A DNA stretch of 55,657 bases, from contig CALUPI010000003.1 in NCBI GenBank assembly GCA_944322645.1, positions 1-55,657 on the forward strand, given 5' to 3'. Both the position numbers and the translations under genes were made by a program. This document shows positions 5,109 through 45,631 of this stretch, in pieces; the stretch's first letter is position 1; each line of letters begins with the position of its first letter. This DNA is from an uncultured Ureaplasma sp. (GTDB lineage: Bacteria; Bacillota_I; Bacilli_A; Mycoplasmatales; Mycoplasmoidaceae). The notes under the pieces were generated by a model, which was not told where the DNA came from, did no database searches, and saw nothing but the letters and a program-made list of their open reading frames with translations.

Positions 5109-8100
5109 TTATATCTCATTGATGATATTTTGTAATTCATTTATAATTAATTCATTTTTAAGCTTTCATTCTATTAATGTAATCCGAAAAATTGGATAAC
5201 CTCTATCTTCAAGGAGTTTTTGTGAGTCAAGGTTTTCTACCATTCTTTTTAGTGAGTTAGTATATGAAATAGAATCACATAAAATTCCTAAAACCACATC
5301 ATCAGTTTTTTTGTTAATAATACATATATCTAATTTGTAGGTACCAATGTTTAGTTTAGTGACAATTTTAAATTTGTCATGATTTATTAATGAAAATAAT
5401 AATTGTGAAATTTCGATTTCAAAATCATTTTGTAAATATTTATAATCACTATTTTTTTGATTTTTTATAAAATCTATAATAGTTTGTTCAGAATTAACTT
5501 TATCACATCATTCAATAAATTTAATAAAAACATTTAAATCTGTATTAGAAGTTGAAATTGTATCATTAGCAAAAAAGCTTTTGACAATTATCATTTCATT
5601 TTTTGCTCTTGTGATAGCAACATTTAACCTATTAATACCACCCTCTTCGCTAAAAGGTCTAAAATCTGTTATCAAATTTCCATTTTTGTTTTTAGCAAAC
5701 GTAGTAGATATTATGACATCATCTGCTTCAAGTCCTTGAATATTTTCAATAGATCCAAATATTAAATTTTTATTTCTATATGCATCAACTGCATTGGAAT
5801 TTATTGAAGATAGTTTTTGATTAAATTGATTTTCAATTTGTTCCATTTGTTTATTGGTAAATGCGATTATTAATAAAGATGATGTTGAACTGTGAGATTG
5901 TTTATATTTATTATTTATTAATTCAATAACCTTATCAACTTCTGCATTATTTACATCATTTTCTAAAATACCATCAACATTGAATGTAGAAACGCTTTTA
6001 TTAAAAAATGAATTTTTAGTGACAACTTTCATTTCATTATTATAAATATATTTGTTTGCAAAGCTAATAAGTTCATAACTTGATGAACGATAATGATTTC
6101 TTAGTTGGTAATTTGGTCATGAAAGGGTGCTTGCTTTTTCAAAAAGAGAAATAATATTTGAATCAGCATCTAATTCACTAGATATGTAAGAATCATCAAA
6201 TGATTTTGTTGCAAAATTACCTATTGGAGATAATTGTTTATCATCACCACATACAATACTTTTTTTAACCCTATAAACTAAAGGATATGAATTTTCATAA
6301 AACATTTGTGATGCTTCATCAAAAACACCATAATCAAATATTCCTTGTTCACATGGAGTTACTTGAGATGTTTGAACTGGATTTAAAATTCAAATTGGAA
6401 ACATTTTTCTTAATAAATGATAATATTTTTTTATAGTTACATTTATAGGTTGAGGAATTCTAAGTGCAGCTATTCTAAACAATTCCCTTAAATCATTTTT
6501 AGTCTTTTCATCATTTGAAGATTCTATATTATTAATTCATTTTTTTAATGAGTAAATGTAATTATTACAAATAATTTCATCAATTGATTTAACTGTTCTT
6601 TTTTGTGTGTTAATGTAGTTATTGTAAATTGTATTTAGTAATGGTTTTTTATGATACTTATTTAATATGGGATCAATATGTATCATAAAAGAATCATATT
6701 CATCTTGTAATTGTCTTAAATCTGAATATGAAATTTTATTAAATTCTATAATTTCATTTTTTTCAATTGTTGAAATTTTTAAATTAATTAATGAATTAAC
6801 TATAGTAACTAGCTCATCTAATTTTTCATTAGAAAAATTATTTGAAAGTTTATTAATATTGAATTTAATGCCATGTTTTTTTATTTTGTGATTCTCAAAA
6901 TAGTATTTGTAAATATATTTTGAATTACGTGATGAGTCAGCACATTTTTTTAAATTAATTAGTTCATTTTGCATAATAGGAAATTGAAAAAATTCCTTAT
7001 TCTTTTCAATATTTTTAAATAAATTTTGATATTGTTGGTAAATTATAGATAAATCATATTCTTTATTACAAGTTGATAATTTTTTAAATAATTTTAAAAC
7101 AATATTTGGAAATTCACGTTTTTCCTCACTAATATAATTAATTTCATCAATATGTTTATCATTAATTAGTAAGTCACTAATCTTATTTAAATCAATATAG
7201 ATATCTTTTACTTTTTTATATGAACTATATGAACTTGGAATTTCTTCATATTTAACATTATCGTTTAGTAAATTATGAAGGTTTTTAATTTTGTTATAAA
7301 AGTATTTTTCATCATGTGTATTATAAGCAAATAGACAAATATTGCCAATCATTTGTAATCTTTCTTCTAATACATCTAATGCTGCTTTTTTCTCTGACAC
7401 CATTAAAACACTTTTGTTATTATTAATTATGTTTGCAATAATGGTAGCAATAACCTCGGATTTACCAGTTCCAGGTGGACCCATAATTAAGGAACTTTCA
7501 TTTAATGCCGATTTTACAGCATATTTTTGGTAAATATTAAGTGGTCTATTAAACATTATTAAATTATCATTTTCAATAATTTCATTTTCATATTGACTAG
7601 CATGAGAAATGACACTTATTTCATCAAATGGGTCAACATGTGAACTAAGTATTTTTTCATAATCTGCTAAAACAATTCCACCATAAGGATCAAAAAGACC
7701 ATATACTATAGAATTATCTATAACAAATTTATCATTTGGTATTTTATTTACTCCAAATTCATCAATTTCATTTATTTTTAGAAAATTAAAATTAGTCTCA
7801 TTAGTGATTGACTTTAAGTAATCAATAATTTTATTTGCATCGCAAATATTTTCATGATCATTTATTAAAATATCAATATCATAATTTTGTTTTAAAAATA
7901 ATTTTAGTTTTTGATTGATGTTTATATCTTTTTCTTTTTTAATAATATATAATTCACCATTAATATTAGAGATAGAAACTTTATACAATAAAAGTGGTGC
8001 TCTTATGATATCACCATCTATAGTTTTTCCAGTTAGAAAAAATGCTCCAACATATAAATATCAAACAGATTCATCATTAAAGCGACGATCTGCTTCTCTT

Positions 8101-8483
8101 TTAATTTTTAAAAATCTTTTATTTCCTAAGATTAAATCATCATGAATACGTTGAAAAACTTGTTTTTTGTTTTTTGTAAAATCACTATTTAATTTTTGTA
8201 TTTCTAAATTTGATAGATAAATATCAGCTGATTCACAAATTTTTATAAATTCATTTGAATTTTTAGATTCATTAATTTTTTTAGCAATTTCATTAGGATT
8301 GTATTTTAAATCTATAAGTAATTTATTGCATGATTCATTAGTTAGAAAATCAATGATTTGATTATCAAAACACCATTTTTTTAAATCAATGCAATTTTCA
8401 CTAAGTTTAGTATTTATACATGGATCATTTTTTAATAATGATGAAGAAATAAGTTTTTCTTTAATGCTTTGACTATTAGACAT
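5109..8483 (-). CDS. Large SF1 DNA/RNA helicase with C-terminal REase_MTES-like domain
   Basis: The frame gives 1124 aa, continuous once TGA is read as Trp. An N-terminal region of about 320 residues is not recognised. The helicase core follows: Walker A GPPGTGKSE (about residue 333), Walker B FDEAS (about 720), motif III GDDKQLSP, motif IV LRNHYRS (about 790) and motif VI INRLNVAITRAK (about 950). This is the Upf1/DNA2-like branch of superfamily 1. The last ~110 residues resemble the REase_MTES nuclease domain: a TYKLDICII strand, a VLGILCDS strand and a LEDRGYPIFRI helix-strand. The canonical E-x-K is not obvious, so nuclease activity is uncertain. The gene stands in front of pepA on the minus strand. 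Related proteins occur in accessory and defence-like settings. Confidence 0.82.
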
Positions 8484-11454: not shown

Positions 11455-12969
11455 ATGTATAGCTTTTGATTTAAATTTAAGTCTTATTTTCCCTCTAATT
11501 TAAATCAATGAAAAAAATATTTATTAAATTCATTGCCGATAATATTTTCAGCAATGATTTTTTCATTAAATTCATTTGTAGATAATTTCATGTCTACAAA
11601 CATTGAAGGAGGAAATCAAGCACTAGCATATGCAAATACATGAACAGAAATATTAATTGGTATTATTTCATTAACAACAATTGTTGGATCAGCTATTTTT
11701 GCTCAATATTTTGGTAAAAAAGACTATAAAAAAGTATCAGAAATAATAAATTTAAGAATGTTATTTTCCTTATTTATTGCATTATGTTTTGCAATCCCAT
11801 CATGAATTGCTAGTAAACAAATGATACAATTAATTTCTGGATTTGATGACAATATTAATCCATTAATAATTAATAATTCTCAAAGTTATTTGTTATTAAT
11901 AACTGCATCGTGAATAATTAATTCATTATGATATACATCATCAATGATATTAAGAGAAACTCATCATGGTTTCATTTCATTTTTAAGTTCTTTAATATCA
12001 TTAATAATTAATGTCGTTTTAAATTCCATATTTATTTTTTTATTAGATAAAGGAATTGTATTTTTGGCATATTCTACAATTATTTCTAATATAGTTTCAT
12101 ATTTATTTGTAATAATATTTAAATTAATTAAAGATAAAAATGTAATTTGAAATTCATTTTATTTTTATAAAGTTTCTAAGGATGTAATTTTTCATTTTTT
12201 TTCTAGATGATTATCATTTGTATTATTAGCAATTGGCTCAATTGCAGTTAGCATAAGATTTGTTATATGAAATATTGGTTATCCAACAGGTTCAATTGGA
12301 TTGCCAATTTATTCAATTGCATCAGCTAATATTTTGGGAATAACTGGCATGTTTTTTAATATATTTTGAACAACATTTGATTCAATAAATTCCAATGTTG
12401 CAATCTTTGTTGGTAAGGAATTGGGTAATAATAATATAAAGATTGCAAAAAACAATGCAAAGGAACTGCTGGGTTTCCATTTTATATTAGCAATTGTAAT
12501 GGGTTTGATAATGTTCGCATTGAGTTTTGGAGTTGAAAAAATGACATTTTTAGCAAAAGGTTATCAAATAGCTTTATCTTCTTCCAATTTAAGCCCTACT
12601 CAATTATCGCAGGCTGTTGATATATTTATGAAAAATATAAAATGAACATTATGAACATTATCATTATTTATGCCTATGTTTATTTGATTTATTACAAAGA
12701 ATAGAATTATATGTAGTGGTGGACATACTTTATGAGTGGCAGTTATAGAAGCAATTTCTGGACTAATGCAATTATTGTGATTATGATTAATCGGATGTGT
12801 TTTTAATGGTAGCAATCATGATAAATTGCCATTTGCATGAGCATATTTTATTTTTTTCTTAAGTGATATTTTTAAATTTATTATTTATGAGATTATGGAA
12901 AGAAATATAAATTGAGCTAAAAATATTACTAATAATAAAAAATTAGTAATTAAGAGAATTACTAATTAG
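11455..12969 (+). CDS. MATE family multidrug exporter
   Basis: A 504 aa integral membrane protein with about twelve hydrophobic segments in two similar halves. Near the N terminus it has MIFSLNSFVDNFM and later TTIVGSAIFAQYFGKK, the pattern of MATE/NorM proteins, which export drugs and cationic compounds in exchange for Na+ or H+. Many TGA codons encode Trp within the membrane spans. It starts one base after the tpx stop, so the two are probably co-transcribed. The last 8 bases overlap the convergent potassium channel gene. Polysaccharide exporters share the fold, but length and order favour MATE. Confidence 0.83.
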
Positions 12970-14551
12970 CATGCAAATACTTATAATTTCCATTATGAAA
13001 ATTTTCAATAGTTAGCAGAGTTTTTTCTAAATACATTGAAGTATAACAAACATTATATTTAATGTATTTTTTATTTTTAATTTTTATTAGATTAGGATTA
13101 TTAATTGTAAATTCACAAATAGCAAATTTATATTCGTAATCATATATAACGATTTTATTAATATTACTAATTAAAAATAATGGATTAAAACTAATGATGA
13201 AATATTTGTGACAATTATTAAATTGTTGAATTTGTTTTTTATTCATACTTACTAATAAAGTTTGAGAATTTTTATTATTAATTTGATCAATAATTTTATA
13301 ATTATAATATTTATTAACATTAGATAGTTTATTAACGTTTTTATTTAACAAGTTTATAAAATTATTATGTTTTTTATTTTCATAAATTTTAAGCTTATTT
13401 TTTTCTGACTCAAAATTATTATATATTTTTTCATCTATAACCTTAAATTTAACAAGTTCGCTTATAAGTTCGTTTTTTAATTTTTGAACATCTAAATTTT
13501 TGTTATCTTTTTTTGCAGAAATAAATTTTGTATATATAGTAACAAAAAAAACTGAATAAAAAGAATAATAACTAACCCCAATTAAAATCAAGAACACTGC
13601 AACTATTCTACTAGATGGTGCTTGAGGAATTATTTGACCATAACCAACCGTAGTAATTGTTATTAAACAATATCAAATTGATTCTCAATAGTTTTTTGGA
13701 CTATATGAATAGTTTGGAGCATTTTGAATAGATTGTCCTGGGTTTTGAGATAATCAGTCTGAATAATAAGAAGTTTCTGTTTTTAGTATTATGAATGAAA
13801 ATATAAATATAATTAATATTAAAAATAATGTTGCAAAAAATGGAGTTTTTCAATTTTTTTTCAATTCTCCAACCACACTAAATTTATTAGAAATGTATTT
13901 TTTATCTTTAAAAGCAAAAATAAAATTAGGAATTATACTAACTATGTTAAAAATAAATAAGGAAACAAATACTAATTGTCCTGGATTTCATGATTCATAT
14001 TGAGTAATTGCAATATTATCATTTGATATAAAATTAGAACCTAACACATTAAAATTTATATATCAATTTGTAGAAACAAATTTTCCAAAAACATGAAATA
14101 ATACAATTAATGTTATGCAACTTGTAAATTTATAAAAGTTAGTAAATCTAAAACAATATTTTAAAAATGAACTTCATCGATTGTATACAAATGAAATTTT
14201 ATAGTCAGCTACTATTAAACCAATAAAAAAATTGAATATCAACAAAAAACAACATATATATTCTATGTACATAAATTTTGCCATCATATTATTAAATTCT
14301 ATATATTCATTAATATTGTTTTGTGTAGGTATAAAGGCATAGTTAACAATAATGGGAAAAATAATAATTAGTGGAATTATTGAAAATAACAAATTATAAA
14401 AAAATGACATAAAGAAATAAAAATTAAAACAATTTTTATTAGAATTTATGTCGGTCAATCTATAAATATAGCATCTAATTCGATTAAATAGAGTTCCATA
14501 AAAAACTTCAGATTTAATTTTAGTTTTAAAAGCAGTAGTTAATTGTGTCAT
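12962..14551 (-). CDS. Potassium channel, six-TM type
   Basis: A 529 aa membrane protein with the K+ selectivity filter TTVGYGQ near residue 300, preceded by a pore helix (WYCLITI) and followed by the inner helix IVAVFLILIG. Four hydrophobic segments (about 45-70, 88-110, 135-155, 180-205) plus one around 240-262 precede the pore, giving an S1-S6 layout as in voltage-gated-type channels. A clear S4 with regularly spaced Arg is not seen, so gating is unknown. The C-terminal ~190 residues are soluble, with a Lys-rich coiled-coil stretch. The whole frame was checked codon by codon and holds only TGA-Trp codons. It converges on the MATE gene. Confidence 0.85.
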
Positions 14552-22056: not shown

Positions 22057-22797
22057 ATGAATATATGTTTATTATTAGTTTTATGTTTAATTGGTCCATT
22101 ATTAGGTTATTTTTCAGGATCAATTTTATATGCTATTTTATTAACAAAATGATTAAAATCTTCAGATATTCGTAAATTTGGTTCTCACAATCCAGGTTTT
22201 ACAAATACGTTAAGAACATTTGGCATAAAATTTAGTACACTAATTTTATTGTTAGATATGTGTAAAGTTATATTACCAACATTAATAATTTATTTTAGTG
22301 TTTATTATATTCCAAGTCTTAAAAATTCTCTGAATGATTTAAATTTCAATCATAACAATTTTAATTTTAGTTTTTTAATATATCTAACAGGAATATTTGC
22401 AATTTTAGGGCACATTTTTCCGATATTTTATAAATTTAAAGGCGGTAAAGGTATAGCATCATATTTTGGATTGATTTTACTAATAAGTCCATTTATATTT
22501 TTGATTTCTTGTCTTTGTCTAATTTTAATAGTATTAATAAAGAAAATAATGTCCTTAGCAAGCATAATTTCAATTTCACTTAGTGCCATTTTATTTTTAA
22601 TTCCTGGGGTTAATTATTTTTATTTAGTAAATTCTAATTTTGTGGCTACTATTGATATCACTATAAATAATTTTGTATTGATTTTACCAACATTTGGCTT
22701 ATTATTACTAATTATAATTTTAATTTTATATAAACATAAAACTAATATTATTAATCTTATTAATAAAAAAGAAAAAAAATTATCTATATTAGGTTAA
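22057..22797 (+). CDS. plsY: Glycerol-3-phosphate acyltransferase PlsY
   Basis: PlsY transfers an acyl group from acyl-phosphate to glycerol-3-phosphate, giving the lysophosphatidate used by PlsC (3140-3919). The 246 aa product has about six hydrophobic spans. The conserved loops are present: SGSILYAILL, then DIRKFGSHNPGFTNTLR near residue 38-54, and HIFPIFYKFKGGKGIASYFG near residue 119. The start has no ribosome-binding site, but a TATAAT ends ten bases upstream, suggesting a leaderless or nearly leaderless message. The ABC exporter genes follow 10 bases later. Confidence 0.9.
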
Positions 22798-22807
22798 AAT
22801 TAAAAAA

Positions 22808-24775
22808 ATGAAATCATGTATCTCATTTTTTTATAAAACAATACTAAACAAAAAAAGTGTATATTTGTTTTCAATTATACTTGTTTTTATGCTATTATTA
22901 GTTACTTATATTTTGCCATATGCGCTAAAAATAAATATTAATCAGTTGCTTCAAATGTCAATAGTTATGGTTTTAGTTGTATTATTAATTGCAATATATG
23001 GTATTATAGTTTCAACTGTCATTTTTAGACAAGGCATTGATGATGGAAGTGAAATTTTAATAATTACTAAATGTGTTACAAGAAAACAAATTGTTTTATC
23101 AAAATTAATAGTCTTACTTTCATTAATTTTTTTTATTAGCTTAATAGCATTTATAATTCCTATTTTTTTAATATTTTCAAATTATGGAACCTCATATCCG
23201 TGAGATTATTCAGTTGGTTTTTTCTTAGTTACATTAATTGTGTCAACTTTATTTTCCGGTATTTCAGTTTTATTTTCCATAATTATGAAAAAAAGTCATG
23301 CAACATTATTGGGTTTAGGAATTGCTTTCTTGTTAACATTAATTAACATTATTAATTTTATGCTTGTTAATAATCCCGGTTTTTATAATCAAAAATATGG
23401 TTATTCTATTCAAAATGTTACTTATTATGATAGTAATAACAATCCCATAAATGGTGTTATTTTAAATCAATATTATGTTCCATATAATACAAGCATTAAA
23501 GATAATGTGATACAAAAAATTCAAAATGAGGCAAATAATTATACAAAAACTAATTTATATACATATTTTGACCCATTTTTTCAATTTTCCACACTTTTTA
23601 GTTTAGGAAATTTTTACAAATCAAATAATAATTTTACAGGAAAAAATATAAATAACCCAAATAGCATTTTTAATAATTCTACTTGATCTAACATATATAT
23701 TGCATTTAATCAAATTAATAATTTTGAGTTAAATAAGAAATTTAAAATCAAAATTGATGATCAATTTATTGAATATACATATTTATTTAATAATAACTTG
23801 GAAATAATAAATGATATTAGAAATTTTAAATTTACAATTAATCAAGAGATTATAAATTCAAATAATTGTTTTGTATTACCAATTTTAAATTTTAATGATA
23901 ATGGTTGTACCGATAATTTAACATTAACCAATAATTTAACATTAAAAGTATTTAATATAGATAATGAAACATCAATGTGTTCTTTAATTAATGAATTGTT
24001 TTCAAATGACAAAAATAGCATTTATACACTTTATAATAATTATTTAAAATGAATTTCTAATACTCATAACAATAATATAATTAGATATTTTAATTTTAAT
24101 TCTTTTTTAAATACATATCTATTTTTAGGATATTCCTTATTATTTGAAAATATTATTAAAGAAGATCCAATTAAATGTATTATAGATAATTCATCTTCTT
24201 TTTTTATTCCAAAGTTATTTTTATTATATTTATTATCATCTTTAGGGTTTGATAGTAATAATTTATCGAATTATTTTAACATTAAAAATTCTAATGAATT
24301 ATTAAATGTAAAATACATTAAACCTAGTATTATTTTTTTATTTTTGGTCCGTCTAAATATTTATAATTTTCAAAAATGTCTTTTAAATATTAATTATTCA
24401 TTGCCCAAAAATATAGATAGTGAATTAATAGTAAATATACTGAACTTATTTCAATATAATAGTTCTCAATATTCTAATTTTGTAGTATTAATGAATAAAA
24501 ATATAGTAAATAAAAATTTAAATTATATATCTCAATATAATTCAAGTTATAATCCAGGTGATATTTCAAATTTGCTAAATTCATTAAATGTAAGTAAAAT
24601 TAAATATTCTTCCAATCCTTATCAATTTGTAAGAACAGACACTTTAAATACATTTTCAACTTTTGAATATAAGTATTATATAAATATATATGGTTTAATA
24701 TTTGGTTGATTTATATTTTCTAGTTTATTATTATTAATTGCAACATGAATATATGCAAAAAAGGATATTAAGTAG
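22808..24775 (+). CDS. ABC exporter permease with large loop domain (paralog 1)
   Basis: A 655 aa membrane protein. Residues 1-185 contain about five spans and the motif FRQGIDDGSEI between spans two and three. A long Asn/Ile/Phe-rich hydrophilic domain follows (about 210-625), then a single C-terminal span ending in a basic tail. The next gene encodes a paralog with the same plan and the matching motif FRSGIDDGSEL. The third gene is the ATPase, so this is one permease of a heterodimeric ABC-2-type exporter. The substrate is unknown. The TAG stop overlaps the next start region as TAGTATG. TGA-Trp codons occur throughout. Confidence 0.78.
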
Positions 24776-24776
24776 T

Positions 24777-26732
24777 ATGAAATCATATTTAACTTTTTTA
24801 TTTTTATCGATTTTTAAAAAAATAAGTGTATGAATAGTTTTTTTTGTTTATTTATTATCAATAATATCATTTGTTTATATTATTCCAGTAGTTTTAAATT
24901 ATACCTTACAAAAAACTTTTTCATATATTTCAATAATTATTTTAATTGTTATTATTATTGCAACTTGTTCTTCATATATTACTGCAACAATTTTTCGATC
25001 TGGAATAGATGATGGATCAGAATTATTAGTTTTATCCAAACAAATTAGTCGTTTAAGTATATTATTATCTAAAGTAATAGTTTTATTGACATTTGAAATA
25101 ATTACTTCTATGTTTTGTTCTATATTAGTTATTTTTACTAAATTTTTTAAATATGGAATTTCTAATCCAACCCCTTTTGTGATTGGAGTATTTTTAATGT
25201 ATTTTATAGTTAGTATGTTTTTTAGTTCTTTGACAATATTATTTTCTTTAAAACTCAAAAAATCCGGTTTGACTCTAATTTCTAGTTCAATTGCAATTGT
25301 ATTATCAATTCTTACCTTTATAAATTATATTGTTGGTAAAACCCCTGGAATTAATAATACTATTGATTCATATTCGGTATCTCAAAACTCATTGTTTAAA
25401 AAAAATAATAGCCAAGAATTTGAATTATATGATGGATATAATCTATATTATAATTATTTTCCAGTAACTTCAACAACTACGAATTATGATGGTGAGCTAA
25501 TTATTAATAATGATAATAAAAATAATATTATTAATTACATATATTGGCAAAATTTGAATAAAACTAAATTTTTAGCAACTTCAAAAATAGATATAGCTTT
25601 TCAGTGAACACAGTTATTAAATTTATCAAATTTTATTTTTGATAAAAATACAGTTGAAATAACATGTTCATCAGTTAGTTCCTTATTTAATTCGCAAGTA
25701 ATGTCCAATTATTATTTAGAATTTAAACAAATTCCTATTGATAATAATGATTATCTATTTTTTAATTGACAAAATAATTTAAATAATATAAATTTTTTAC
25801 CAATAGTTACAAGAGAAAAATTTGGTATTTATAAAGAAAATAATAATACAACTAAATTTTTTTATCTTAACCCTATTGATAATAATTTTTATAATTTAAA
25901 GTCCCAATATGTATATATTCCTATTATTGATGAATTCAAAAAGGTTAAATTTGTTAAGTTTAATAATCCATATTTGAATAAGTCTGATGAAATTATTAAT
26001 TTTTTAACTAATAAATTAAACATAATTTATGAATATAAAAAATTTAAAAATTGAATAAACAATCATTATAATGATATTAATTACTATTTTAATCAATTTT
26101 TGTTGTCATATTTTTTTAATTCTTTTATTATATTATTAGAAAACATTCAAAATGGGAATGACATTCTTATAGTAGATAAAGATGACAAATTAATTCAAAA
26201 TATAAATAATAATACTATTAAAAATATATTTATAAACAATTATCATATAGATTTAGATTTTATTAAACTGCTTCCAATTGATTATTTAAAATCATCTAAT
26301 TTTCTTACATTTAATACCATAACAATTTTTACCTTACAAATATTAGAATCTATACAATATAGCATAATTGAATATTTGACTAATATTAATTCTCAATATG
26401 GTTTCATTAATAATAATGAAAATAACTCAATAATTTCTTCCGGAATTTTTAAAGATAATTCATATACTAATAATTCAACATTATTTTTCGCAATTAATGA
26501 AAATTTAATTAATAAATTGGATTTAAATATTTTTGATTATTTACAAGAATCTTCTATTTATATAAATGAAATTCCTGTATCTTCTTCAAATATTGACAAT
26601 TTTTCAACATTTGCAATTGCAAAATACAATACTTATTTAAATTTATACGGAACAATATTTGGATGATTAGGAATATGTATAATTTTTATTAGTATTTCAA
26701 CATATTTTTATTATAGAAAGGACTTTAAATAG
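24777..26732 (+). CDS. ABC exporter permease with large loop domain (paralog 2)
   Basis: A 651 aa paralog of the preceding gene and almost the same length. It shares the N-terminal five-span block with FRSGIDDGSEL, a long Asn-rich hydrophilic domain, and a final span preceded by NLYGTIFGW (paralog 1: NIYGLIFGW). Sequence identity in the middle domain is low by eye, whereas both ends are clearly related, so the pair arose by tandem duplication followed by fast change of the loop. The reading frame was checked through the gap at 25605-26100. The ATPase start follows in the same TAGTATG arrangement. Confidence 0.78.
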
Positions 26733-26733
26733 T

Positions 26734-27750
26734 ATGAATAGATTTTGAAATAAACTTAAAAAAGATATTAAATTATATAGAGATTATTATTTTTCATCTC
26801 CTAAAAAAGATGCACTTAAATATAAACCAAATCCTGCATATATTTTAGAAGTTATTAACCTATATAAAAAATATAAACCTAAATCACCTTGAATTATTAA
26901 TAATCTTAATTTTCACATTCAAAAGGGTGAATTTCATGCTTTTATTGGTGGTAATGGTGCAGGTAAAACAACAACAATAAAATCAATAATTGGTGCATAT
27001 GCTAAATTTAATGGATGTGTTTATATTGCTGGAAAAAATAATTTTACTAAAGAATCTAAAAAATTTATGGGTTATATTCCCGAAGTGGCTAAATTTCCCG
27101 ATGGAATGTCTGCACGAGAATATTTAATTAGTATGTGTGAAATGTCTGGTCTTAGTCACCAAAAAAGTGTAATATACACTGATAAAAAATTAAAAGAATT
27201 TCATATGATAAGATTAGCAAAAAAGTCACCAAATAATTTTTCTTCTGGACAAAAAAAGAAAATATTACTTGCACAAGCATTAGTTCATAACCCTGATCTA
27301 TTGATAATGGATGAACCTGCTGCAAACCTTGATCCAATTGCAAGAATGGAATTTTTTAGTACATTAAAACAATTACAAAAACAAGGTAAAGCGATTTTTA
27401 TAAGTAGTCATATACTTTCAGAATTAGATAAATTTGCCGATTCATGTACAGTATTAGATGGTGGAAAAATTGTCTATACTGGAAAAGTAGATGTTGATTA
27501 TACATCATATTTAGTTACTATTAATCCTAATAAATTTGAAACATTAAATAAAATTTTTATAAAATTTAATATTAATGCTTCTAATATTAGTGGAAATCAA
27601 TATATGTTAGATCATTTTTCTAATTTAAAGTTATTACAAGACTGATTAAATAAAAATTATATAATTGAATTTAAGAAATATAAGAGAACTCTTGAAGATA
27701 TTTATAATAAATATGTAATTAAAGGATCAATTGAAACTATGAAGGTTTAA
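26734..27750 (+). CDS. ABC transporter ATP-binding protein
   Basis: The 338 aa ATPase drives the exporter formed with the two preceding permeases. After a ~45-residue extension, it has Walker A GGNGAGKTTT (about residue 73), a shortened signature FSSGQKKKILLAQAL, Walker B LLIMDEPAANLDP and the switch His in ISSHILSE. This is the CcmA/NatA-type drug and bacteriocin exporter class. The C-terminal ~110 residues are a family-variable tail. A terminator hairpin overlaps the stop codon. Confidence 0.87.
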
Positions 27751-31286: not shown

Positions 31287-32213
31287 ATGTTTATGAAAAA
31301 AGCAATTTATTTAACAATTGGTTCAGTTTTGATGACTAGTGCAATTGTAGCAACTAGTGTTTTGCTACCTACATTAACTACCTCTAGTAACGTTAATTCT
31401 TTTAAGTTATTTAATTATAATCCTAATAATTTAGCAAATTTAGATAATTCTCAACTTAGATTTAATCCTACTAATATGTCTTCTATTAATCAAAATTACA
31501 AAGACATAATTTCTGGTAAATTTTACAAGGATAATAATTATGTTTTATTAATTACTAGTCAAGGTTATAATTCAAACAATACTTTTTTATATGGTTCTCA
31601 AGATCAAATTGATTCAAAAGTATCTGAAACTAATTCCCAACCAATATTAAATGGAGATTTTGGAAAAGGTTTAAAATCAATTCCTGATCTTCAAATTCAA
31701 CCAAAAGTTTTAGTCATTCAAGATGTATTAACAAAAGCAGATTATAGCGATGAAGAAGCATATAATAATATGGTTCAAGAATATAAAAACATTGATACTT
31801 CAGCTGCAGATAATGATGAAGATTCGGATGATTATAAAAAGAAAAATTGAGCTCAATCTGCTGGTCAATTTAGTTTTGTACCCGGAAAAACATATGAAAC
31901 CTGAGATCATAAAACAGTATATTTTAGACAATCTAATAAATTTCCATTACTTTATAATGAAATAGTTAGCTTTGTAGCATCTAACTTTAATAATTTAAGT
32001 GATGTCACTACATCTAGTTCAATTGTTATTGGATATAAAGATGGTAATTTATGTTCAGATTTTACAGGTTCTTTTTCTTCATCAACTAATGATGAAGAAG
32101 GTAGTGATTCAAATGATGCTAGTCAAACAAACTTTTATTCATTATATAATAATTCAAAATCTATAAGCACTTTTGAACAATGATTAATAGATAATTATGG
32201 AACTAAAGAATAA
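31287..32213 (+). CDS. secreted or membrane-anchored protein, unknown function
   Basis: A 308 aa protein (306 aa if the second ATG at 31293 is used, which the promoter position favours). Residues 3-30 form a signal/anchor: KKAIYLTIG followed by a hydrophobic stretch without a lipobox cysteine, so it is probably anchored by its N terminus and not by lipid. The rest is Asn/Ser/Asp-rich, with acidic low-complexity stretches around residues 165-190 and 270-285. Two TGA codons in the second half are Trp. No family was recognised. Its last 17 bases overlap the TrmR-like gene. Confidence 0.78.
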
Positions 32214-38271: not shown

Positions 38272-39115
38272 AAAAAGAATATTAATAATCGAAAATACAC
38301 CAGAAATTGAAGAAGCTATTAATAATTTAAATGAGGAAAACATAAAAATAGAACGTCATCCTAATTTAGATGAAAAATGAATAGAAGAATTTAAGTTAGA
38401 CAAAATTTCAGAACATCCACTTATTAAGAAATATAATATTCAAATTGATCAAAATAATGTATTATTAAAGTCTTTTTATGCAATTTATAAAAATATATAT
38501 GATGGAATTGTGATTGGTCATATATACACATCTAAAATTGTGTTTATATATTCTATAATTTTTTTTGGTCAAAATATCTTATCAACTTCATTTATTTGTG
38601 AAAAAAATAAAAATATTTCTATTTGAACAGATTGTGCCTTAAATATAAATCCTAATTATGAACAATTTTATAAAATAATTCTTAATGCTTGTGAATTATA
38701 TTATAACAATGTTAAGAATATAAAGACAATTAATGTTCATTTACTTAGTTTTTCTACTATGGAAGATTCTAATGATGAATCTATAAAAATATATAATAAA
38801 TTAATTAATGAAACTAATTGAGATCATTTAAAATATAAGATTAATTTAATTGGACCTATTCAATATGATGCTTCAATTAATAAGGATATTTATTTTAAAA
38901 AAACAAATTTTAAAAAATATTTTCAACCACACATTTTTGTATTTCCAAATTTAAATGCTGGAAATATAGCATACAAAGTTGAATCTCAATATTCTAAATT
39001 TTATGGTCCATTTATATGTGGAGTAGATAAAAAAATTGCTGATCTGAGTAGATCAGCAACTATTGATGAAATAATAAAAACAATTAAGTATCTTTGTAAT
39101 ATTAAGAAAGATTAA
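38255..39115 (+). CDS. phosphate acetyltransferase-like protein, shortened
   Basis: A 286 aa protein whose last third matches phosphate acetyl/butyryltransferases: FVFPNLNAGNIAYKV near residue 229 and GPFICGVDKKIADLSRSAT near residue 256 are close to the active-site blocks of Pta. The first ~130 residues fit poorly, and the total is about 30-40 residues shorter than normal Pta, so it may be a diverged paralog. If active it would interconvert acetyl-CoA and acetyl phosphate. Its ATG lies 17 bases inside uvrC after AAGGAG. It converges with the lipoprotein gene (14-base overlap). Confidence 0.72.
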
Positions 39116-41663
39116 CACCATCAATATATACTACATTTGATAATGATGATGTACCAGAAGAAGTTGTATATAAGAATTTTAAGTTATTATTAGAACTTAG
39201 AATTTTAATTTGATCTCCATTTTTTAAAAGTTGTAATGTATTAATATTTTTATTAAACTGAGTTAAATTAATAATTGAAGGAATATAACTATTATTTTTA
39301 ATTAATTCATTATAAATATTTGTTCCTAATGCATTTAAAAAAAACGGACCTTTAATTGTATCTACAAAATTAGTAATATTTAATTGTTCAATGGTAGCGA
39401 TAAACTGTTCTTTGATTAAATTTGCATCAATTTCTAATGTTGTTTGAAGTACATCTACAGTAATTATCAATTCGCCTCCACTAACTAAATTAACATTAGC
39501 AGCATTTTCATTATTTAATTCACCTAAAACATATGTTAAATTAGAATCCGGTTTGACAGTAAAGGCAAATTGGACACTAGTGTTTTCATAATCATTTGGA
39601 TCTTTTGGAATTATTTCAACTGCAACATCATTATTGTATACATTATTACCAAATAATGTTTGTAATAATTGTTCACTATAAATTGATATGTTAGTATTTT
39701 TTTGAATATTATTATCATTAATAAATCGCTTTAATATCTTAATAGTTTCATCTGTAACAATATATTCTTTATTAAATCATTCTACATTAGTTTCAAATAT
39801 CTTAGTGGGATATCCATTAACATCAAACATATAATCATAATTTTGGTTAATAGTAATTTTAAATGAATTTGGACCAACTTCTACAGTTGCCTTGTCAGAT
39901 GGTAATATATTTCCAAATACCTTTTGAAAGAAAACATCTTTATAATAATTAAAATCTTTATAACTAATAATTTCTAATTCATTGATAGTTTGTTGAATTT
40001 TATTAATAAGATTATCTGTATCAATTAAATTATATGGCATATAGAAATTTATATTTTTAATTATTAAAATTTTATTTTTATAATGTTCTTTTTCACTACT
40101 TGCATCCTTAATTTCTATTGAATTAACATTAACACCATCAAGTTTTTCAAATTCCTTGTTAATGTCTTCATTAAGTTCAAAAATAAGATTATAATATTGA
40201 ATTTTATTTGAGGAATGTGAATATTGACAACTTCAAGTAACTTCACTTGGAGTTATATAGTGTTCAATTGGATCATAAGAATCACTATTTTCTGCTCCTA
40301 ATTCATATGATTGATTAATTTTTTCAAAAATTTTAGATACTGCTGCCTTTTGATTTGCTAAATCATCAGGTCTTTCAATTTGATATGTATCCAAAATATT
40401 AGAAATTTGACTACTTAAATTTGGGTTTTGTATTTCTACTTTAAATGGTGTAACATCAACATCAATATGAATAAGTATTTTACCATTATCTAAATATTCA
40501 ATTTTTTCATCAGAAACCATATTAGTTTTTATATTTGAACCATTTAAATCAATAGTAATTGTTGCAGGAGTTTCAAAATCTTTATATGTAATACTATTTT
40601 CGTTATCAATTTGTGTATTTATTGTAACATTTTCAAGTGATAAAACCGGAACATTCTTAGTAATATCTTTGACATTCCCAAATTTATTTAATATTTGATT
40701 ATAAATGGCATTATTTATTGTAGCAATATCTTTAGTTTCAATGGGTTTATCCTTGAAAATTGCTTGAATTTTTTCAAAAATTATAGAATTATCTAAATCA
40801 CTTAATATATATGTTGGAAAATCTAAATTAGAAATAGATAAAGTCATTCTATCATCAGAAATAGACATATTTGAAGGTATAGTTCCATCTGAAATAATAA
40901 ATCTATATTTTGGAGATTTACTAATAACTTGTAATGTTCCAATTGAATAACTACCATTACTTTCTTGAGTGAAATCAACTTTATATTCAAAATATTTAAC
41001 TAAATTTTGGATTATTTCTTTTGGATCATTTCCTTGTTGTTTTCCATATAGAATTAATTTATTAAAAATTATTTTATCAATATTCATTTCATTTGGAGAA
41101 TATTGATTTATTATATAACTTGAAAAAATTTTATTGTCATTTATACATTTTTGTAGTGAATTTAAATCAATGTTTCATCAATGAAATCTTCTTAATAAAA
41201 CATCTAAATCATCATTTTGATCAACTGCTCATTCAATATTTTTTATTTTTAATGTTAAACCATCATTGATTGATTCAGTGTTTTCAGGAGTTTTTGAATT
41301 AAATCTATTGTTTAATTTATCAGAAAGATTTACCAAAATAAAATTTGATCCAGGTTTTAATGTAAAATCTAAAATATCAATACCAATAGCATTTGAAATA
41401 TAATTTTTTAATATTATACCGTTATTTGAATTAGAAGAGTCTAGAGAGTTTAGAGAGTCTGGATAAGAGATATTATTTTTATCTATAGTAGATTGACAAC
41501 GTTGTTGAATATTACTCGATACATTTAAGTAATTAAAATTACCTGAATTTACAGATTCAGTTTTTTTGGAACATGAGGTAAGTGTAATTCCTAGAGTTGT
41601 AGAGATACCAGTTAAAAATAAAGCAAATGTTGATAACCCAATTATCTTAGACTTTTTATTCAT
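39102..41663 (-). CDS. large surface lipoprotein
   Basis: An 853 aa lipoprotein. Residues 1-30 are a lipoprotein signal: MNKKSKIIGL, a hydrophobic core, then the lipobox LTSC, so Cys31 would be lipidated and the protein anchored on the outer face. The rest is Asn/Ser/Ile-rich, with repeated beta-rich stretches (LKNGDQIKILSSNN, VFGNILPSDKATV). No known domain was recognised. Four TGA-Trp codons divide it. GAGG lies about 13 bases before the ATG. It probably forms part of the exposed surface; it could be a paralog family member elsewhere in the genome. Confidence 0.82.
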
Positions 41664-41698
41664 AATAAAATATAACCTCTTCTTTTTAGTGATAATTC

Positions 41699-42865
41699 TT
41701 AAAATCAACTAGATGGTCCAAATGGCCCACTAAACATTGATCCACCACCTAAATTGCTAGTATCAATTTGACCATTTCTAATTTCAGAAGCATATTGTTC
41801 TAATAATTTCATAATACGTTTTTCATCTCTTTTTGGATTTAAAATAGCTCCAATCACTGTAAATATCACTACAAGACCAATAACAACAAATATAGCAATT
41901 TGAATATTAGCAGCATTTGTAAAAATTTGATGTGCTGAATTAGAACCAGGATTAGCAATATTAGGTTTATTAATTAATATATTTCAACTAAACATAAATG
42001 TTGACATTAGGAATAATACAATATAGAAACTCATTACACCTCATGAGAATTTATATTTAGAATTATCATTTTTAAAATTTTTAAACATAGAAAATGAAAT
42101 AAATCCTAGTATTGCTAAAACAAATATAAATTGAAATATATAACTTGCAATTGAAGAATTACTAAAGAATTGTAAATTACTATTTCCATCTACAATAACT
42201 TCAACATTTTCTCCGTATTTGGCAACTAATGCAAATGCAGCAATGGATAATACAAACATTACAAACAATAATGCAATAACAATGAACTTAATTATTGGTA
42301 TAAATTTTGGTTTTGAATTATATATATAAACTTTGCCTTTAGAAATATTCTTGCTAAGAATCATATTGGCCTGTGTCATTATTAATTGATCAGCAACATC
42401 ATGCATTGTATATCCACTACTTCTAATAATTTCTTCATCAGACTTATAATTTCCTTGAAATTCATTAGATGAAGGAATTTCACGACTAGTTTCTTCTTTT
42501 ATATTTGCCTCATTATTTGATTTATTAATACTATCTATTTGTTCAATTGATAATCTTAATGTGTTCAATAAATAAATATTCGTATATTTAATAGTGTCAA
42601 CAATATCATTAAAATTTGAAAAGTTTAACTTATCATTATTAACAAATTTTTTAGTAGTTATCATTTCATAACTTTTGATAAATCTATTAGAATTATTACT
42701 ATTAGATTCAATTTTGTCAAAATATTTAACAATTGAAATGTCATTAGTAATAATTTCTTGAAAATTTTTATCTGATCTTAATAAATCAGTTGTTTTGTTA
42801 TCTAAAAAAATAATGTCTAAATAATGAACAACAAGATCATAATTTTGTTTTTCTTTTTCAGTCAT
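41699..42865 (-). CDS. membrane protein, unknown function
   Basis: A 388 aa protein. The first ~185 residues are hydrophilic and helical, with a stretch rich in Asp, Asn and Ser. About four spans follow (near 190-215, 238-260, 277-297 and 317-340). A short Gly/Pro/Ser tail closes it (residues 375-388). It ends in Trp-Phe before TAA. It lies between holA and the lipoprotein on one strand, spaced by 2 and 35 bases. It shares a general membrane-plus-soluble-leader plan with the 34891 gene. Confidence 0.75.
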
Positions 42866-45286: not shown

Positions 45287-45631
45287 TTGTAAGTGGTCAA
45301 TTGCTGCAAATTGCAGAGGAAAGTCCGCACTAGCACAACCTGAGATGGTTGTAGTGTTTGTACTCATGCTAATAACATGAGGTGATTGTAATGATCAACG
45401 GCAAATTATTTTGGACCCACGTGGTTGACAATAATTTCTAAGGTGCCACAGTGACGAAACTAATCAGTAATGGTTGGAGTGAAACGGGGTAAACCCTACA
45501 AGCTAGAAACCCAAATTTTGGTAGGGGAATTGAGTGATCAAAATGAAGAGAAACTCAAATCGATTTTTACAAAATTGATAGATAAATAATTGACACTTTT
45601 TAAAGTACAGAATGCGGCTTATAACTTACAA
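45287..45631 (+). ncRNA. rnpB: RNase P RNA, class B
   Basis: This is the catalytic RNA of RNase P, which removes 5 prime leaders of pre-tRNAs. The universal core is present: GAGGAAAGTCCGCAC near the 5 prime side, ACAGTGACGAAAC and GGAGTGAAACGGGGTAAACCC in the middle, and ACAGAATGCGGCTTAT near the 3 prime end. The termini pair (TTGTAAGT with ACTTACAA), fixing the ends. It has the shape of the class B (Bacillus/Mollicute) form. Its relatively high G+C contrasts with its surroundings. Confidence 0.95.

Follow-up and report, generated by a model that had tools for sequence, protein, structure and literature searches.

The window (the whole stretch of DNA that was analysed, 55,657 nucleotides, with open reading frames called under genetic code 4) contains three adjacent genes on the forward strand, which encode two large membrane proteins, here called permease A and permease B, and an ABC ATPase. 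These genes, their main features and the acyltransferase gene directly upstream are as follows (TM, transmembrane span):

22057-22797, forward strand: PlsY (glycerol-3-phosphate acyltransferase; TIGR00023, E 2.1e-46), 10 bases upstream of A
22808-24775, forward strand: permease A, 655 aa, six TM spans, 442-residue TM5-TM6 loop, ABC2_membrane_2 in the N-terminal part
23024-23053, forward strand: FRQGIDDGSE of A (residues 73-82), in the cytoplasmic TM2-TM3 coupling-loop region
23369-24694, forward strand: probable extracellular loop domain of A (residues 188-629), 20% Asn, from span prediction, loop profiles and the model
24773-24779, forward strand: TAGTATG junction of A and B (stop, one base, start), identical in two related species
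24777-26732, forward strand: permease B, 651 aa, same plan as A, 440-residue TM5-TM6 loop, paralog of A
24993-25022, forward strand: FRSGIDDGSE of B (residues 73-82), in the TM2-TM3 coupling-loop region
25323-26642, forward strand: probable extracellular loop domain of B (residues 183-622), 18% Asn, homologous to the loop of A
26730-26736, forward strand: TAGTATG junction of B and the ATPase gene, TAATATG in both related species
26734-27750, forward strand: ABC ATPase, 338 aa, PF00005 match, with Walker A, signature, Walker B and H-loop intact

The original prediction, which had read this region as an ABC exporter with two tandemly duplicated permeases, was exact in all coordinates and motifs with respect to the two gene lengths, the ATPase gene that comes next and the TAGTATG joins. 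The PlsY gene is perhaps co-transcribed with the exporter genes, and nine tRNA genes on the opposite strand come after the ATPase gene.

Elsewhere in the window, a UvrD helicase gene is preceded by an RNase P RNA of class B (243 bits; 45289-45626, forward strand), in a stretch without large open reading frames. On the reverse strand, 39102-41708 encodes a putative lipoprotein of 868 aa (13% Asn, without a Pfam match), in which a lipobox-like LTSCSKK follows the N-terminal span, 12962-14551 a protein of 529 aa whose residues 258-340 match Ion_trans_2 (E 2.2e-12), possibly a two-span ion channel within a larger protein, and 5109-8483 an 1124-aa protein that combines DUF4011, a helicase and REase_MTES_1575, possibly a phage-defence or restriction-like make-up. 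The product of 31287-32213 (forward strand, 308 aa) has a signal-like span at its N-terminus and matches DUF6856 (E 1.5e-8).

Membrane parts of the permeases and the ATPase

As had been proposed, both permeases contain five N-terminal spans with FRxGIDDGSE and a C-terminal GxIFGW with its span; more specifically, hydrophobic span prediction gives five spans, then some 440 residues of loop and a final sixth span, ahead of which GLIFGW or GTIFGW stands. A and B are 28% identical end to end (E 3e-37). Permease A matches the Pfam family PF12679 (ABC2_membrane_2) above the cut-off (E 7.8e-12, residues 15-258) and B alone has no Pfam match, while PF12679 matches 12 of 23 members of the family to which both belong. 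The FRxGIDDGSE sequence, which had been noted as a shared motif, turns out to be a local form of FRxxIDDGxELLIxSKPIxR, conserved across the permease family; because it falls within the PF12679 match and is conserved family-wide, it is best read from sequence as the usual TM2-TM3 coupling-loop region of ABC-2 permeases and no new motif.

AlphaFold models of A and B were built from six input sequences and reached a mean pLDDT of 53. In all of the best 50 rows shown, the model of A was aligned to ABCG, NosY, ABCA, Pdr5 or a mycobacterial ABC pump, with ABCG5/G8 at Z 16.6 (250 residues, rmsd 4.5), NosY at Z 16.2 and ABCA1 at Z 16.1, values that come from a low-confidence model and that can be partly generic for helical bundles. 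The aligned residues in this comparison run from 1 to 655, so the loop would be inserted ahead of the last span. In Foldseek searches, both models found matches for the membrane part only, with weak E-values (best 0.012). The assignment to the type V (ABC-2) class, and with it the proposal of an ABC exporter, is thereby backed by the sequence signature of A (for B only via its homology to A) and by the predicted six-span fold.

The ATPase matches ABC_tran (PF00005) with E 9.8e-24 and carries extensions of about 36 aa at its N-terminus and about 83 aa at its C-terminus. Its motifs are intact (Walker A GGNGAGKT, signature FSSGQKKK, Walker B LLIMDE, H-loop SSH), and the signature FSSGQKKK is common to 48 of 51 ATPases of the family. 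Among solved structures, those closest to it are the ATPase domains of human ABCA3, ABCA1 and ABCA4, followed by NosF, and by sequence the protein is of the DrrA/NosF/ABCA type.

A rather unlikely alternative is that the three proteins form a mechanical ABC complex and not a pump, in which hydrolysis moves the outer domains in order to handle or release surface proteins or lipoproteins, as in the type VII mechanotransducers. The very large outer domains would suit such a function, and no conserved cargo, enzyme or outside-partner gene was seen near the exporter loci, which fits this explanation as far as cargo and enzymes are concerned but speaks against it as far as a partner is concerned. 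Type VII systems such as FtsX and MacB, however, have a four-span permease with the outer domain after TM1, whereas six spans, a domain after TM5 and an ABC-2 Pfam match were found here, and ABC-2 systems are mostly exporters.

The loop domains

Lysine and arginine are frequent in the N-terminus, the TM2-TM3 loop and the C-terminus of the permeases and rare in the two short outer loops, and it follows from this distribution (positive-inside rule), together with the type V topology, that the big TM5-TM6 loop probably lies outside the cell. The middle domains had been described as Asn-rich, and indeed Asn makes up 20% of the A loop and 18% of the B loop, compared with 10.5% (s.d. 1.9%) pooled over 27 other proteins of the window.

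They had also been called very different, and as to their kind this did not hold up. When profiles of three A loops and three B loops (with all spans removed) were compared, they aligned over 264 columns with a probability of 95.5 and E 1.5e-8, while the controls (a reversed profile and 20 column shuffles) gave E 0.26 or worse, which rules out unrelated loops. The low-confidence models also show the same order of strands and helices in the central loop part. By profile comparison, the middle domains of A and B are one and the same domain, diverged in sequence. A search with the permease-family profile against solved structures yielded a single weak loop match, to 8bic (E 0.026), which was taken as chance, and the Foldseek search with both models gave nothing matching the loop, a result that does not make the loop fold new.

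Across the wider family, loop homology is detectable within groups, namely between A and B, between the M. penetrans-type permeases and those of genus g8, and between the upstream and downstream permeases of genus g10, while in the branch of single-copy permeases the loops match even across families (hhalign E 2e-108, 386 columns). Between groups it is mostly undetectable, although the membrane part aligns. Therefore, the loops seem either to have been replaced between groups or to have diverged past detection.

The original prediction proposed that the exposed domains evolve fast, perhaps in order to bind molecules of a host or partner, or a substrate that varies. Faster change is borne out by dN and dS from the orthologs of three species: between the window and the related locus L062, dN is 0.42 in the loop compared with 0.20 in TM1-5 for A, and 0.40 compared with 0.23 for B, about a twofold difference. 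An arms race is not, as loop dN/dS stays below 1 (0.45-0.87, from three species with dS near saturation) and gives no sign of positive selection. In some pairs the C-terminal extension of the ATPase changes about as fast as the loops. Considering the low ratios, the saturation and this equally fast extension, the loops are less constrained than the membrane part, without demonstrated selection for change.

These results bear on the idea that the outer domains are adhesins or immune decoys under host-driven positive selection, which we regard as very improbable. Their rate of change and the frequent loss of detectable loop homology between genera whose membrane parts remain alignable are what such molecules might show, but the ratios do not indicate positive selection, the loops of A and B retain a common domain, and the strong conservation of the single-copy loops between families suits a working part of the transporter better.

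Distribution, neighbours and history of the paired permeases

The nearest named relatives, found by a pattern scan of genome contigs with a six-row alignment, are an uncultured Ureaplasma sp. (CASFKH010000086) and Candidatus Ureaplasma intestinipullorum (JAHLFM010000015), both placed in the genus of the window by kinship assignment. The name of the latter appears in a chicken gut study (PMC8035907). In Candidatus Ureaplasma intestinipullorum, a 1138-aa Cas9-like protein (recognised by eye; it begins KKKINIGLDIGITSVGYSII) is encoded just downstream of the exporter on the same strand (L032, 5351-8764, reverse strand).

Similar permeases had been expected in other mycoplasmas, and they are common. 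The profile of the permease family has matches in 8 of the 10 genomes searched in the genus, in 64 of 95 in the taxonomic family and in 182 of 320 in the order Mycoplasmatales (26 of its 50 genera). The last figure is an upper one for the large-loop kind, because a few families (f5, for example) contribute short matches that resemble ordinary ABC-2 permeases, some 200-270 positions long and within frames of some 250-280 aa. Outside the order, none of 395 genomes sampled across the class gave a match at E 1e-14.

The plan is not peculiar to one genome: three Ureaplasma species (the window and its two relatives) share the order permease, permease, ATPase, and 21 further loci, in genera g10 and g4, hold two permeases around one ATPase (permease, ATPase, permease). 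The order permease, permease, ATPase was found in those three species only, and in each of them one ATPase gene stands beside exactly one A and one B. A single permease with an ATPase occurs in many lineages, including all 20 loci read from family f7, and loci with three or five permeases were found in two genomes. In one of the latter, from another family of the order, five large-loop permeases flank one ATPase, two on one side and three on the other (L046, 5405-15663). The genome of the window itself has a second locus of the family (L060, 271-2878, on contig C9 of genome G000), with a 625-aa single permease and a 261-aa ATPase that is 41% identical to the ATPase of the window. In genome G019, which we take to be that of M. 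penetrans HF-2, permease genes are seemingly broken, an intact copy of 713 aa being accompanied by incomplete frames of 575 and 198 aa (L050, 4639-9394). A further homolog lies at 401889-403733 of genome G188 (1,003,404 bp), which we take to be that of M. bovis PG45. Table 3 of a transposon screen of M. bovis (PMC4045577), which lists disrupted ABC transporters, has none at 401889-403733; not appearing in a list of this kind is weak evidence.

The neighbouring genes are mostly housekeeping genes and differ between genera, so that a dedicated cargo gene beside the exporter was rejected. In other genera the neighbours are presumably IleRS, Lon, UvrC or LepA, names that come from our own reading of the sequences. 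PlsY stands directly upstream of A in the window and at L031/L062, and the third species has no end of a PlsY gene within 400 bases upstream of its A, which rules out PlsY as a fixed partner; with linkage in two of three species, it is probably not part of the exporter system. A lipid exporter linked to phospholipid synthesis via PlsY, a sharper version of the explanation that we prefer (see below), is arguably suggested by this linkage and by the resemblance of the ATPase to the lipid-moving ABCA proteins, but in view of the third species and of the different neighbours in other genera we consider it quite unlikely.

As to the origin of the pair, the tandem duplication put forward in the original prediction is upheld by phylogeny. 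In a tree of the N-terminal parts of 94 permeases, A and B are sister clades (support 0.992), and a tree of 39 sequences with ultrafast bootstrap unites them with UFBoot 99. On these trees, A and B come from a duplication of their own. The alternative that they are the counterparts of the first and last genes at the permease, ATPase, permease loci was rejected either way round (p-AU 2.5e-4 and 1.9e-4). From the monophyly of A and B and the rejection of the joined trees it follows that paired permeases arose independently at least twice, as judged by the sequence trees.

Gene order and co-retention suggest that A and B would work together as a heterodimer. A different arrangement, in which two homodimeric exporters (A2 and B2) share the ATPase and move different substrates, is unlikely in our view. 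It has some appeal, since the single-permease relatives must work as homodimers or alone with their ATPase, and since A and B differ at about 70% of their sequence. Sharing an ATPase would not, however, demand strict one-to-one retention, and A and B have been kept jointly in three species, each as one orthologous set; pairs around one ATPase, moreover, recur at the 21 other loci, and those placed on the tree have one member in each clade.

The explanation that we prefer, and consider on balance probable, is that the products of the three genes assemble into a single type V (ABC-2) exporter of the composition A1B1C2, with the outer domains above its exit and an amphipathic substrate, for which a lipid, a glycolipid or a hydrophobic peptide would be our guess. 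One A and one B would form the channel, and two copies of the ATPase, in contact with the FRxGIDDGSE loops, would drive transport: ATP binding would close the ATPase dimer, and the substrate would be moved outward. Together, the two outer domains would cover the exit of the channel like a canopy and could there act as a gate for the substrate, take it up or pass it on. In an ancestor of the three Ureaplasma species, a single permease, presumably working as a homodimer, would have been duplicated to give A and B.

More generally, the family may represent a mycoplasma-specific class of type V transporters in which the outer domains between TM5 and TM6 are a working part of the pump and in which at least two lineages independently turned a one-gene homodimer into an obligate heterodimer encoded by two genes, a proposal that we make tentatively and rate somewhat below an even chance. 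If such independent moves took place, they provide a natural test of how transporters turn asymmetric, and the separate duplications allow direct comparison of a symmetric transporter becoming a heterodimer. About half of the Mycoplasmatales genomes searched contain the family. These organisms have very few genes, and a pump that they retain probably has an important function. The outer domains, probably surface-exposed on mycoplasmas of animals and birds, could be studied as surface structures. That the family occurs so widely, and that it moved to paired permeases more than once, is of greater interest than this one locus.

Comparison with known systems

With the ABC-2 (type V) exporters such as NosFY, ABCG, ABCA, PmtCD and DrrAB, the mollicute family has in common the Pfam match, the six-span fold and the separate NosF/DrrA-like ATPase, and it differs from them by a TM5-TM6 domain of 300-600 residues. 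ABCG proteins have a short TM5-TM6 loop, and ABCA proteins carry their large outer domains after the first span of each half. Also related are the single-copy mollicute permeases with a 234-aa ATPase (family f7 of the order, and the L130-L142 type), which the permease profile matches over their full length and whose ATPases are 48-54% identical to that of the window; unlike the window, these loci have one permease, a short ATPase without extensions and a loop without detectable homology to the A and B loops.

A description of this permease family was not found by full-text searches of the open literature. Among described systems, the Bacillus subtilis type V/VI hybrids LnrLMN, NatAB and YhaQP have a type V membrane part with outer domains, which consist of a five-stranded sheet with flanking helices and resemble those of LptFG in size and place, and most of their ATPases have an extra regulatory domain; in LnrLMN there are, as in the window, two different permeases for one ATPase gene (PMC11466899). 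The outer domain of A and B is larger and lies before the last span, a distinction drawn from the description of the hybrids and not from their sequences. Theirs is nevertheless the nearest described plan.
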